Assembly: GCF_024199795.1 (NCBI RefSeq)
Contig: NZ_JANADK010000001.1
Span: forward strand, 5,022,001 to 5,086,000
DNA: 64,000 bases
Direction: 5' to 3'
From: Bradyrhizobium sp. CCGB01
GTDB taxonomy: Bacteria; Pseudomonadota; Alphaproteobacteria; Rhizobiales; Xanthobacteraceae
The translations under genes and the position numbers were made by a program. The notes beneath the pieces were generated by a model. That model was not told the DNA's origin. It was given only the letters and a program-made list of their open reading frames with translations, and did no database searches. Shown piece after piece: positions 1,390 through 6,887 of the stretch (the stretch's first letter is position 1; each line of letters starts with the position of its first letter).

Positions 1390-2553
1390 GTGCTTTCCAT
1401 GAGCCCGTCGCCCCGAAACGCGCCATCTGCGCTGCGTTACAGGCTTGCCCCTGACCCGGCCGCCAAGGCCGCGCTGGAGGCGACGTTCCAGGCCTATGAC
1501 CGCATGATGGAGATCCTGGACGAGGTCGCACGGAGCCATAACGTCGGTTCCAACGTCGTCCTGCTCCATGCCCATGCCTATGACCCAATCCGCAAACAGA
1601 CCGCGCTGCCGTCGCGGCTGGTGACGCTGGGCCTGCGCGACCGCGCCGATTATCGCGCCGCGCAAGGCCGCCGCCTGCCGCTCGACGACAAGCTCGCCAA
1701 GATCAAGGGCCCCGCCACCATTTCGATTGCGACGGTGCAGGGGCGCTTCAGCGTGTCCTTCGACTACGCCGGCTATGCCGAGGGCTGGGGGCAGAGCGCG
1801 CCCGCGCACCTCATCCGCACCGACGACGGCTTCGAAGTTCACTACGGCGTCACGCCGAACAGTCTGCCAGAGGAGGAGAACGCTATGGATACCATCGCTG
1901 CCGCCCCCGACAATTTCCTGTCACGGGTCGGGCGCCTGATCGCCGGGATTGCCTATGACGCGATCGAGCAGGCGGAAGGCAAGAACAAGCTCAAAGTGGT
2001 CGGCCAAGCCATCCGCGAGATCGAACGCGCGGAAAGCGAAGCGCGCGACGCGCTCGCGGCCGCACGTGCCGAGGAATACCGTCTCAACGCGCGTCGCACC
2101 GAGATCGAACGCGAGATGACCGATCTTGCTCCCAAGATCGAGGGCGCGATCGCCGATAACCGCGACGATCTCGCGCGCGCCGGCATCGCGCGGCAGATGG
2201 ATCTGGAGGCGCAGTTCGAGGTGCTCTCCCGCGCCATCGACGAGAACAACGAGAAGATCGAGCAATGCGTGACATCGCTGCGTGCGGTGCTGTCGGCGCT
2301 CCAGGACGCCGAGCAGCGCCGCGCCGATCTCGAAAAGAGCGAAGCACAGGCGAGCCATCAGGCCGCGACGTCGCCCCGGAAATCGGGCGGCAGCTCGGCG
2401 GCGGCGAAGGCCCTGCGGGCGGGCAGGGCGGTGGCGCGCGCCACCGGCGTACCGCCGGGCATTCCGTATTCCAGCGACATCGACGAGCTCAGCACGCTCC
2501 ATCGCGACAGGGAGATTGCGGCGAGGCTGGCGCGGCTGAAGTCACGCTCCTGA
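1390..2553 (+). CDS. PspA/IM30 family protein with a TnpB-like N-terminal domain
   Basis: 387 residues in one uninterrupted frame. Residues 166 to ~330 are a long, charged, Ala/Glu/Arg-rich helix typical of PspA/IM30, a membrane-binding scaffold of the phage-shock response. Residues ~15-160 do not belong to PspA: an YRLAPDPAAKAALEATFQAY helix, an HAYDPIRKQTALPSRLVTLGL helix, then ISIATVQGRFSVSF and AHLIRTDDGFEVHYGV strands follow the order of the N-terminal lobe of IS605-type TnpB, ending where TnpB's RuvC domain would begin. No RuvC residues are present. ATG 1885 has AGGAGG 8 bp upstream and would give a 222-residue protein of normal PspA length. No good ribosome site precedes GTG 1390 or ATG 1399. 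The YqiJ-like gene follows after 10 bp. The PspA call is firm; the TnpB resemblance is by eye. Confidence 0.8.
   Translation: MLSMSPSPRNAPSALRYRLAPDPAAKAALEATFQAYDRMMEILDEVARSHNVGSNVVLLHAHAYDPIRKQTALPSRLVTLGLRDRADYRAAQGRRLPLDDKLAKIKGPATISIATVQGRFSVSFDYAGYAEGWGQSAPAHLIRTDDGFEVHYGVTPNSLPEEENAMDTIAAAPDNFLSRVGRLIAGIAYDAIEQAEGKNKLKVVGQAIREIERAESEARDALAAARAEEYRLNARRTEIEREMTDLAPKIEGAIADNRDDLARAGIARQMDLEAQFEVLSRAIDENNEKIEQCVTSLRAVLSALQDAEQRRADLEKSEAQASHQAATSPRKSGGSSAAAKALRAGRAVARATGVPPGIPYSSDIDELSTLHRDREIAARLARLKSRS
1871..1887 (+). promoter_or_regulatory. strong internal ribosome binding site and start for a short PspA form
   Basis: AGGAGG at 1871-1876 is followed 8 bp later by ATG 1885, in frame with the surrounding gene. 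This is the best Shine-Dalgarno sequence in the operon and sits exactly at the junction between the TnpB-like and PspA-like parts. It predicts a separate 222-residue PspA product in addition to, or instead of, the fusion. Confidence 0.6.
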
Positions 2554-2563
2554 GTGCCGTGTC

Positions 2564-3223
2564 ATGAGCGCTCTGCTCGAACACGTCATGATGCCGGAGG
2601 TCAGGCCGTTCGCGATCGCGGCGGCCATGATCCTCATCGTCGGCTCGATCGAGGTGGTCTCGATGCTGGTCGGCGCTTCGCTGAGCGAGATGCTCGGCAC
2701 CAACATCGATTTTGGTCACCCCAGCGACAATGGCGTGATCAATGCCATCTCCTGGATCAATGTCGGCGGCGTGCCGCTGTTGATCTTCCTGCTGCTGCTG
2801 CTCGGCGCCTTCTCCATCACCGGCTTCCTGATCCAGGACATCGCGCGGATGGTGGCTGGTCCCTTGCCGACGACGCTCGCCTCGGTCGGGGCGGTCGCCG
2901 CCTCGATTCCGCTGGTCCGCGGCGCGAGCCGGGCGATCGCGCGGGTCATCCCCAAGGATGAAAGCTACGCCGTCGGCCTCGGCGATCTCGTGGGCCGCGT
3001 CGGCGAGGTCGTCATCGGTCCACTCGATCAGGGGCCGCCCGGCCGCGTCAGCGTCGCCGACATTCACGGCAACCGCCATTTCGTCTGGGCGGTCGCCGCA
3101 CCATCGTCATCGCCCCTGCCGCAGGGAACCATGGTCCTGCTGGTCGATCGCGCCGACACCCGCTTCGTGGCGGTGAAGGCCGACGATGAACTCAAGCCGT
3201 CCAAACCACCTCTAAGCAGCTAG
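2564..3223 (+). CDS. YqiJ-like inner-membrane protein with OB-fold domain
   Basis: 219 residues. Three hydrophobic segments (about residues 15-38, 70-92 and 100-118) are followed by a soluble beta-rich part (about 140-205: LVGRVGEVVIGPLDQGPPGRV and on) that resembles the OB fold of YqiJ/NfeD proteins. Such proteins usually pair with flotillins. It lies 10 bp after the PspA-type gene and 24 bp before the flotillin start, so the three are probably one transcript. The likely role is a membrane partner that organises the flotillin assembly; no catalytic residues were recognised. Confidence 0.8.
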   Translation: MSALLEHVMMPEVRPFAIAAAMILIVGSIEVVSMLVGASLSEMLGTNIDFGHPSDNGVINAISWINVGGVPLLIFLLLLLGAFSITGFLIQDIARMVAGPLPTTLASVGAVAASIPLVRGASRAIARVIPKDESYAVGLGDLVGRVGEVVIGPLDQGPPGRVSVADIHGNRHFVWAVAAPSSSPLPQGTMVLLVDRADTRFVAVKADDELKPSKPPLSS

Positions 3224-3246
3224 CAAGCCATTTATTGGAGAAAGTC

Positions 3247-4941
3247 ATGTTCGACATCGCAGTCCCGGCCATGATCGGCGTCGCGCTGATCGTCGTCCTC
3301 GGGATCGTCTTTACCATCCTCTACAAGCGCGCGACCCGCGACGAGGCCTTCGTGCGCACCGGCCTCGGCGGCAAGAAAGTCGTGCTCGACGGCGGCGCTA
3401 TGATCCTGCCGATCTTCCACTCCTATGCCAGCGTCAATCTGAAGACGCTACGCCTCACCGTCGAACGCAAGGAGCGGGAATCCCTGATCACCAAGGACCG
3501 CCTGCGCGTCGATATCGTCGCCGAATTCTACGTGCGCGTCCGCCCCGACGATGAGAGCATCGCGCTGGCGAGCCAGACGCTGGGAGCGTTGACCAACGAT
3601 GCCGAGGCGCTGCGCAACCAGGTCGAAGCAAAGTTCGTCGACGGCTTGCGCTCGGTGGCGGCGACCATGAGCATCCTCGAGCTTCAGGAGAAGCGCTCGG
3701 ACTTCGTCAAGCACGTGCAGGCCACGGTCGAGTCCGATGTGAAGTCGAACGGGCTCGAGCTTGAATCGGTGTCGCTGACCAAGCTGGACCAGACCGACGT
3801 CAAGTTCTTCAACCCCGAAAACTTCTTCGACGCCGAAGGTCTCACTCAATTGAAGACCGTCACCGAGACCCGCCGGCGCGACCGCAACGCCATCGTGCGC
3901 GACAACGAGGTGGCCATCGCGCAGAAGGACCTCGAGGCGCGGCAGCAGACGCTCGGGATCGAGCGGACCAAGAAGGAGGCCGAGCTCTCCCAGGAGCGCG
4001 ACATCGCCAACAAGACCGCGAGCACCCGGGCCGAGGTCGCAACCGCAACCCAGACCGCGCGCCTGACCGAGGAGAACGCACGCATCGATACCGATCGTGC
4101 CGTTGCCGAGAAGGAGGCCGGTGCCAAGCAGGTCAAGGAAACGGCAGTCATCGAATCGGATCTGGCGATCAACAAGCGCAAGACCGATGCGCAGCGCGAG
4201 ATCCAGATCGCCACGCAGGAGAACGAGATCCAGATCGCGTCCAAGAGCAAGCAGACCTCGGAGGCCGTCGCCGAGGCCAAGACGGCCGAAGCGCTTGCCG
4301 TCTCCGCTGAGGAAAAGGTGGTGACGGCGCGCGCCGTCGAGGTCGCCGACCGCGCCCGTCTCACCCAGGTGCTCGCCGCGCGTACCGAGGCCGAGCGCAA
4401 ATCGACCGAACTGATCGTCGCGGCCGAGGCCGAGAAGAAGGCGTCGCTCGATCGCGCCGAGGCCGTCAAGACGCTGGCCACTGCGGAGGCCGAGTCCAAC
4501 AAGATCAAGGCGGTCGGCGTCAGGAATATCGGTGAAGCGGAAGCTGCCGTCATCACCATGAAGAACGAGGCGCAGAACAAGCTCGGCAGCAACGTCATCG
4601 ATTTCGAGATCGCCAAGAAGCGGATCGAGACGATGCCGTCGGCGCTGGCCGAGATGGTGAAGCCGATCGCCAACCTCAAGGACGTCCGCATCCTGCACAC
4701 CGGCGGCGCATTTGGCGGTAACGGTGCGGGCGGAGGCAATGTCGGCTTCGGTGAAGGGCTTGCCGGCGAGCTGCTGAAGGTGCACGCGCTGCGTCCGATG
4801 ATCGACGAGATCCTGCGCCAGAGCGGCTTTGCGCCCGGCGATGATCCCGTGAAGGCGCTGGTCGGCGCCGTGACGGGCAAGAGCAACGGTGCCGCGATGC
4901 CCGCGCCCGTGGCGGAGAAAACAAACGCCGCCGATCTATGA
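3247..4941 (+). CDS. flotillin family protein (YqiK type)
   Basis: 564 residues. An N-terminal membrane helix (about residues 5-27) is followed by an SPFH/band-7 domain (about 28-200), a long Ala/Glu/Lys coiled coil (about 200-430), and a Gly-rich C-terminal tail. The size is close to E. coli YqiK. ATG 3247 is chosen because TTGGAG lies 7-12 bp upstream; an in-frame TTG at 3235 would overlap that site. It is the last gene of the PspA-YqiJ-flotillin operon. Flotillins form membrane microdomain scaffolds, and PspA/flotillin linkage is known in other bacteria. Confidence 0.9.
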   Translation: MFDIAVPAMIGVALIVVLGIVFTILYKRATRDEAFVRTGLGGKKVVLDGGAMILPIFHSYASVNLKTLRLTVERKERESLITKDRLRVDIVAEFYVRVRPDDESIALASQTLGALTNDAEALRNQVEAKFVDGLRSVAATMSILELQEKRSDFVKHVQATVESDVKSNGLELESVSLTKLDQTDVKFFNPENFFDAEGLTQLKTVTETRRRDRNAIVRDNEVAIAQKDLEARQQTLGIERTKKEAELSQERDIANKTASTRAEVATATQTARLTEENARIDTDRAVAEKEAGAKQVKETAVIESDLAINKRKTDAQREIQIATQENEIQIASKSKQTSEAVAEAKTAEALAVSAEEKVVTARAVEVADRARLTQVLAARTEAERKSTELIVAAEAEKKASLDRAEAVKTLATAEAESNKIKAVGVRNIGEAEAAVITMKNEAQNKLGSNVIDFEIAKKRIETMPSALAEMVKPIANLKDVRILHTGGAFGGNGAGGGNVGFGEGLAGELLKVHALRPMIDEILRQSGFAPGDDPVKALVGAVTGKSNGAAMPAPVAEKTNAADL

Positions 4942-5894: not shown

Positions 5895-6887
5895 TTATAG
5901 TTCAGGCTCGGGGGCTTGGACCCTCAGGCGAGGACCGGCTCCTACTGCCAGGGTCTGCGACGGACGCTCCCCGAACATCGCAAGGTAATACTGCGAGAAT
6001 CGCCCGAGCTCGTAGAAGCCCTGCTGCATGGCGACAGCGGCCACGGTCGTCGAGCCCGGCGCGCTCTCATGCAGAATGGAATGAACGGCGCACAGGCGCT
6101 TGTGCCTGAGGAAGCTGACCGGGCCCAAACCGAACACCTCTTGAAATGCGCGATGCAGGGTGCGGCGCGACACCCCGAGGGCGGCGCAGATCTCCGACAC
6201 ATGCACCGGGCGCGTGCCGGTATCTTCGAGATACTCCTCGACCCGGCGGATCAGCCGCCTTGCCGAAGGCAGCCAGCCGGTGTCGTCAGGCGGCAGAGAC
6301 GACATGACATTGGCCGCCATGCACTCCACGATCGATCGCGTCCAGAAGTCGGCGGTCGACGGTGTCAGGCCGGCCTTGTAGGTACGCAGATGCGACATGA
6401 TCCGGACCAGGCGACGTGAGGCGATGGCGCCACTATCGAGGTCTGCCCGGAAATGTCCGCGGCTGCGCCAGGTTTCGGGGTCGCTCAACCTCGGTTCGCC
6501 GCCGAACAGCGAGGCCACGTCGTTGAGGTCGAAGCGCATGGCCGCGTAAGCGGACGCGCCGAAGAAGACGCCGTCATGCTCGAGCAGCGGCGGAATCACG
6601 AGCACGTCGTTGAGGCCCATGTCGAAAGACCAGTGGGTGACGCGCTCTTCGGCCGCGAGCAGCATCCCGATGATCAGCTTGTCGTCGCTCGAGACGCGCT
6701 GCGTGCGCATGCCGACGTTGAACGTGCCGATGCTGAGGGAGAAATCGCCGATGCCGACATGGGACAGCGTTCCGCGCAGCCGCCCGCGGCCGAGTTGCAT
6801 CACGTCGACATGCGAGCCGTGGACGGCCTGCTGAAGACCTTCGAAGCCGTCGAGCTTACGCGAATCAACCAGGAGGAATTGCCCCAT
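5895..6887 (-). CDS. AraC family transcriptional regulator
   Basis: 330 residues. The C-terminal ~100 residues hold the two helix-turn-helix motifs of AraC/XylS proteins (VSEICAALGVSRRTLHRAFQ, then a QQGFYELGRFSQYYLAMFGE segment with the classic second-helix pattern). The N-terminal ~220 residues are a ligand-sensing region without a recognised family. AAGG about 8 bp before the ATG supports the start. No divergent target lies beside it: the tRNA is downstream and a sparse region upstream. Its regulon cannot be inferred here. Confidence 0.85.
   Translation of the reverse strand: MGQFLLVDSRKLDGFEGLQQAVHGSHVDVMQLGRGRLRGTLSHVGIGDFSLSIGTFNVGMRTQRVSSDDKLIIGMLLAAEERVTHWSFDMGLNDVLVIPPLLEHDGVFFGASAYAAMRFDLNDVASLFGGEPRLSDPETWRSRGHFRADLDSGAIASRRLVRIMSHLRTYKAGLTPSTADFWTRSIVECMAANVMSSLPPDDTGWLPSARRLIRRVEEYLEDTGTRPVHVSEICAALGVSRRTLHRAFQEVFGLGPVSFLRHKRLCAVHSILHESAPGSTTVAAVAMQQGFYELGRFSQYYLAMFGERPSQTLAVGAGPRLRVQAPEPEL

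Follow-up and report, generated by a model that had tools for sequence, protein, structure and literature searches.

Why should part of a transposon-encoded TnpB stand in one reading frame with PspA, a membrane-stress protein? The question is raised by a gene near the start of the window, i.e., the whole 64,000-nucleotide stretch of Bradyrhizobium sp. CCGB01 DNA analyzed here, in which positions 1390–2553 (+) form a single open frame with no internal stop. Translation likely begins at ATG 1399 rather than at GTG 1390, because the starts of homologues coincide there and a conserved promoter block finishes just 5′ of it. From this ATG, the fusion gene (1399–2553, +) would encode 384 residues: a 162-residue lobe of the TnpB WED+REC type without RuvC (1399–1884, +), followed by a 222-residue PspA/IM30 part (1885–2553, +).

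The C-terminal 222 residues match PF04012 (PspA_IM30) with an E value of 6.3e-12 and 46 bits, against a curated cut-off of 33.9, in line with the sequence-only reading, which had placed PspA/IM30 from residue 166 onward. When a full-length AlphaFold model (pLDDT 76.6, pTM 0.42) was compared to known structures with Foldseek, Vipp1 entries and E. coli PspA (4whe) were among the top rows, with a probability of 1.00 and E values of 1.3e-3 to 2.7e-3, none of these Vipp1/PspA rows falling below 0.001.

A TnpB-type lobe without RuvC

For the N-terminal part, the same reading had recognized the order of the TnpB REC/WED lobe in residues ~15–160, ending at the point where RuvC would begin. Plain sequence searches of Pfam, NCBIfam and the PDB did not detect this relationship: no Pfam match rose above cut-off (HTH_OrfB_IS605 reached E 0.17), and searches against the PDB by sequence gave weak unrelated rows (E 0.94 and worse; 0.06 and worse), none of them TnpB. 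The match that these searches missed became visible with profiles or divergent relatives. Aligned by hhalign to one Parageobacillus TnpB, a set of 14 fusion N-domains reached a probability of 93.9% and an E value of 1.5e-7, which is the value for that single pair; the similarity covered TnpB residues 4–166 and stopped ahead of RuvC. An HMM built from the same 14 N-domains gave each of 122 TnpB-type proteins a score of at least 20.2 bits (20–58 bits), 120 of them at E ≤ 1e-3 when scaled to a million sequences. The top intact TnpB (P0213) reached 46.4 bits, and the best of 610 shuffled or reversed control sequences 4.7 bits. Y61, R65 and R116 were invariant across a combined alignment of 22 sequences.

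The predicted fold of the lobe resembles the WED-REC lobe of TnpB/Cas12f, and the best 50 structural matches listed for its AlphaFold model were all TnpB, Cas12-type or Fanzor proteins. Profile and structure comparison, both named beforehand as checks, hence agree with the assignment made from the letters, including its end at the RuvC border. At that border PspA takes over: the fusion protein showed no PF01385 (RuvC) match at E ≤ 10, and no match to the TNB zinc finger PF07282, which is present in the comparison protein P0209. The fusion and TnpB of IS200/IS605 elements (e.g., ISDra2, or Parageobacillus WP_013878188) thus have the WED+REC lobe in common, by profile and by predicted fold, whereas TnpB has RuvC and the TNB zinc finger and the fusion has neither, being joined to PspA instead.

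Which nucleic acid such a lobe would handle can be judged from ISDra2 TnpB, in which the TAM duplex lies in the WED-REC cleft and is read by Y52, S56, K76, F77, Q80, T123 and N124 of WED/REC, while the omega-RNA scaffold is gripped by WED plus RuvC (PMC10097598). With RuvC gone, the lobe is better termed a dsDNA reader. The original proposal that the RNA-binding half of a transposon nuclease had been reused is therefore kept as to the reuse of the lobe and given up as to the RNA-binding label. Fusion lobes are near neutral in charge and TnpB lobes mostly positive, a difference that could mean weaker nucleic-acid binding.

Recurrence of the fusion, its operon and a second start

Within the order, 11 of 199 genomes contain the N-domain (a twelfth match, L012, was rejected as a chance match), as do 30 of 397 genomes of one family and 6 of 385 genomes of the class, two of these six being the window's own genome and one of its own genus. 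It was also found on 11 plasmid records from Rhizobium, Agrobacterium, Shinella and Bosea, a twelfth plasmid record being that of Thermobacillus (see below). Overall, the fusion is recurrent in Alphaproteobacteria, and the survey of homologues that had been named in advance found it conserved across genera and orders. All 89 loci retrieved have the junction in one continuous frame, with no stop or frameshift. Two loci truncated by the end of a contig, L197 and L226, were excluded from the analysis. Calculated from up to 55 loci, the N-part had a median dN/dS of 0.106 and the PspA part one of 0.089, and by this measure the lobe is under purifying selection. Given its presence in 11 of 199 genomes, its intact frame and the dN/dS of its N-part, a chance or assembly origin is excluded, and it is as good as certain that the fusion of a TnpB lobe and PspA is real.

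Records of the nearest relatives are titled Bradyrhizobium, except L045 (Bradyrhizobiaceae) and L050 (Frankia). The latter, titled Frankia sp. RB7, has an N-domain 93% identical to that of Bradyrhizobium and is probably misnamed or contaminated. One genome of the window's genus (G194) gave no match to the N-domain, to the PspA part (E 1e-8) or to the palindrome described below (≤1 mismatch); there, the unit was lost or never acquired.

Directly 3′ of the fusion gene, and accompanying it in relatives wherever checked, are genes for a YqiJ-like membrane protein with an OB fold (2564–3223, +; PF21001 E 8.8e-20, PF07290 E 1.3e-9) and for a flotillin with Band_7 and Flot domains (3235–4941, +; PF15975 E 1.2e-30, PF01145 E 7.1e-16), whose true start may be ATG 3247. 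In a comparison of neighborhoods covering families in at least 4 of 16 loci and ORFs of at least 90 aa, the common genes listed were the fusion, YqiJ and flotillin alone. An AraC-type gene downstream of flotillin (5895–6887, −; HTH_18 E 8.5e-18) is absent from these common genes and was rejected as a candidate regulator.

An association of PspA, YqiJ and flotillin is already known, with CesT/Tir partners, and >98% of PspA homologues show little architectural variation, most lineages having PspA_IM30 alone (PMC11237479). Compared with those operons, the one described here has the same PspA, YqiJ-type membrane protein and band-7/flotillin, and its fusion adds a TnpB lobe; no Pfam match to CesT/Tir was found in the N-part. 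TnpB does not occur in the main text of that PspA survey (PMC11237479), and no description of TnpB with PspA, flotillin or a phage shock protein was found in the literature searched, a scope that left subscription journals mostly outside.

The same operon also occurs without the fusion in four relatives (L179–L182). Three of them (L179, L180 and L181) have a separate gene of 160–171 aa in the slot before pspA, with a ribbon-helix-helix-like start. This ribbon-helix-helix match is weak: of three pieces, one gave a hit (E 0.081), another search gave none, and a PDB profile search of the small gene gave mostly coiled-coil-like rows, located outside the ribbon-helix-helix region. Short inverted repeats stand upstream of the small gene, of a kind that AT-rich sequence can give by chance. 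The arrangement fits, but does not prove, a slot upstream of pspA that is filled by a DNA-binding regulator.

Within the fusion gene, a Shine-Dalgarno (SD) sequence conserved in relatives (AGGAGGAG, 1871–1878, +) precedes the internal ATG 1885. The in-frame ATG was found in 89 of 89 loci, with a core SD in 86 and an SD-like sequence in all 89, compared to a core SD before 1 of 391 other in-frame ATGs (84 loci). In a wider set of 125 loci (8 repeat records removed; L001–L004 may duplicate earlier loci, the contigs of L003 and L078 being equal in length), 121 passed the script, and the remaining four, checked singly, showed an SD with ATG (L005, L229 and L230) or GTG (L190). Since the residues encoded by the internal SD and start differ between groups (PEEENAM, SQKEIPM, SPRKDNVM), nucleotides seem to be the conserved level. 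From this start, a lobe-free PspA of 222 aa is predicted to be produced as an additional product. No SD was found ahead of the first ATG of the fusion in any of 84 loci.

This SD-less first ATG, together with an internal SD and start codon in every locus (89/89, and 125/125 in the wider set after single checks), would also suit a different account, namely that the shared frame is incidental, the two parts being genes that are translated separately with no stop codon dividing them, and most PspA coming from the internal start. However, breakage of the frame would then be expected in some lineage, and all 89 loci are free of stops and frameshifts despite a variable linker length; the purifying selection on the lobe likewise speaks against this account, which we regard as very improbable.

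A palindrome at the promoter of the fusion gene

The proposed operator is a palindrome just upstream of the fusion gene (AAAGCACCAAAATGGTGCTTT, 1368–1388, unstranded), with the pattern AAAGCAC-N7-GTGCTTT, found at the same place in relatives. In the 9.3-Mb genome of the window it is the only site with ≤1 mismatch, and there are 3 further sites with 2 mismatches, compared to 15 for a reversed control pattern. Nine of the 11 fusion genomes have a single ≤1-mismatch site, which lies at the fusion gene; G087 and G196 have two-sided variants at the fusion gene, AAAGGAC/GTCCTTT and AAAACAC/GTGTTTT, respectively. With a script, 84 of 89 loci were found to have the palindrome at 10–12 nt from the ATG, and the five loci that it missed also have one, with one mismatch in L021 and L025 and regular in L008 and L082. 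It precedes a GTG, not an ATG, in L025 and L071, and is imperfect and farther from the ATG in L232. The pattern alone carries some background, since 50 of 188 fusion-less genomes also contain a ≤1-mismatch match. A perfect palindrome in one fusion-less genome (L130) lies, by eye, between phage-like ORFs and is apparently unrelated; a further perfect match occurs in G007.

The palindrome follows the TTG of a −35-like box in 26 of 30 representatives (the other 4 are without TTG), and in 23 of these 26 the −10 position, after a spacing of 17 bp, is occupied by TA, as in the TTGAAA-17-TATATT of L099. A scan of the window's own promoter did not find consensus −35 and −10 boxes. Since E. coli psp is transcribed from a sigma54 promoter, this type was considered too, and was rejected by eye on spacing. 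Farther upstream, between the preceding gene and the promoter, an intergenic element (1101–1190) carries repeated GGCGGATTA / TAATCCGCC inverted arms and has, by eye, a REP-like look.

We then compared operator bases with 137 variable, well-filled columns of the domain in sets of 61, 30 and 18 representatives. For L081 and L232 the site was positioned manually, the arms are weak in L212 and L232, and L025 is not part of the 61. Across the 61 representatives, base 5 was best predicted by residue 73: arginine went with C in at least one arm (50/50) and glutamine with the absence of C (11/11). Base 4 was best predicted by residue 57, histidine going with G (48/48) and other residues with the absence of G (13/13). 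Further columns without exception in this set were 17, 92 and 132 for base 5, and 50 and 79 for base 4. The runners-up in the sets of 61 and 30 were residue 76 for base 5 and residue 79 for base 4; in the set of 18, residues 73 and 57 again came first, with residue 68 equal to 76 for base 5. In the structural model, residue 57 lies in a predicted helix spanning 53–67, and residues 73, 76 and 79 in one spanning 72–87, i.e., in the same helix order as the ISDra2 TAM contacts Y52 and S56 on the one hand and K76, F77 and Q80 on the other (PMC10097598). No residue-by-residue alignment of the lobe to the ISDra2 contacts was obtained by sequence, so that exact equivalence between them is something we infer.

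On a tree of the 30 representatives built with the tested residues masked, residues 73 and 57 changed two and three times, respectively, and bases 5 and 4 twice each. Supported branches yielded one independent pair for residue 73 and base 5 and two for residue 57 and base 4, all concordant and too few for the independent-pairs test to have significance. With few independent events behind it, this covariation is suggestive of a lobe that reads the operator.

Covariation of this kind would also fit RNA. The palindrome could form a hairpin, and WED also touches omega-RNA in TnpB (PMC10097598), so the lobe might be an RNA-binding domain, perhaps for a hairpin or its own mRNA leader, that delivers RNA to the membrane scaffold or regulates translation. 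Yet in most representatives the palindrome sits between TTGAAA-like and TATATT-like boxes, and it stands 10–12 nt from an ATG without SD (0/84); the mRNA is therefore predicted to begin at or near the ATG, with the palindrome probably untranscribed. The fusion also lacks RuvC, the domain that grips much of the RNA scaffold in TnpB, and its lobe is near neutral in charge. On these grounds, RNA binding appears distinctly unlikely.

The same near-neutral charge would accord with a mere protein-protein or assembly domain for PspA, the palindrome being bound by an unlinked regulator; CesT/Tir assembly proteins indeed accompany PspA in other PspA-YqiJ-flotillin operons (PMC11237479). Such a regulator, however, would have to keep one close site per fusion genome and to follow base changes that track lobe residues 57 and 73, which makes this alternative doubtful in our view.

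Proposed self-control and known systems

We consider it probable that the lobe is a guide-free DNA-binding domain that keeps its own operon repressed until a stressed membrane recruits PspA. The DNA binding, repression and release that we infer would proceed as follows. A TnpB WED+REC lobe would have been captured without RuvC and reused to bind DNA without a guide. Two lobes would occupy the two palindrome arms, between −35 and −10 in the promoter of the fusion gene; they would read the bases via the REC helices by which TnpB recognizes the TAM, and the operon would be switched off. Upon envelope damage, the PspA part would assemble on the membrane with YqiJ and flotillin, the lobe would be drawn off the DNA and the operon would open, while the internal start would provide additional lobe-free PspA for membrane work. 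The link to envelope stress put forward in the sequence-only reading would thus persist by another route, i.e., through probable transcriptional self-control, as suggested by the dedicated palindrome in the operon's own promoter, and not through RNA binding.

TldR, like the fusion, is a TnpB-derived protein, and both would control transcription. A TldR-type repressor keeps a dead, i.e., inactive, RuvC, whereas the fusion is without any RuvC and has, as its putative site, the palindrome at its own promoter. To our knowledge, the known domesticated forms of TnpB retain the RNA-guided scaffold. In Gammaproteobacteria, PspA restrains PspF, and PspA is there likewise coupled to the control of its own operon; that system has a separate regulator, whereas the fusion would unite regulator and effector in one chain, behind a promoter that is sigma70-like in many relatives. 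In the published record, TldR proteins are RNA-guided, TnpB-derived transcription factors (PMC13418256), PspF is a separate enhancer-binding protein (PMC11237479), and Cas12 is considered to descend from TnpB (PMC10097598).

A broader reading, to which we give roughly equal weight for and against, is that the fusion represents a transcription factor of a new class, in which a TnpB lobe without nuclease and guide RNA would read a fixed palindrome with the TAM helices and is fused to a membrane-remodelling polymer. One chain would then sense stress, act as effector and repress its own operon, the balance being set by the lobe-free product. The TAM-reading half would then persist alone, under purifying selection, in another role, and PAM/TAM reading would become testable as an ordinary transcription-factor contact made without RNA. 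If true, PspA systems would gain a built-in DNA switch in place of a separate regulator such as PspF.

Outside the fusion, phage records gave two weak unrelated rows. A stand-alone TnpB lobe of 176 aa, without RuvC and annotated as hypothetical (P0210), is encoded on the Thermobacillus composti plasmid pTHECO01 (L096:2450–2980, +); the viral contigs searched with it contained no relative. Upstream of its gene stands a short palindrome, ATAGATT-N5-AATCTAT. This stand-alone lobe may be a relic or a second reuse and, if the class proposed above is real, it would show the same invention put to use a second time, independently.
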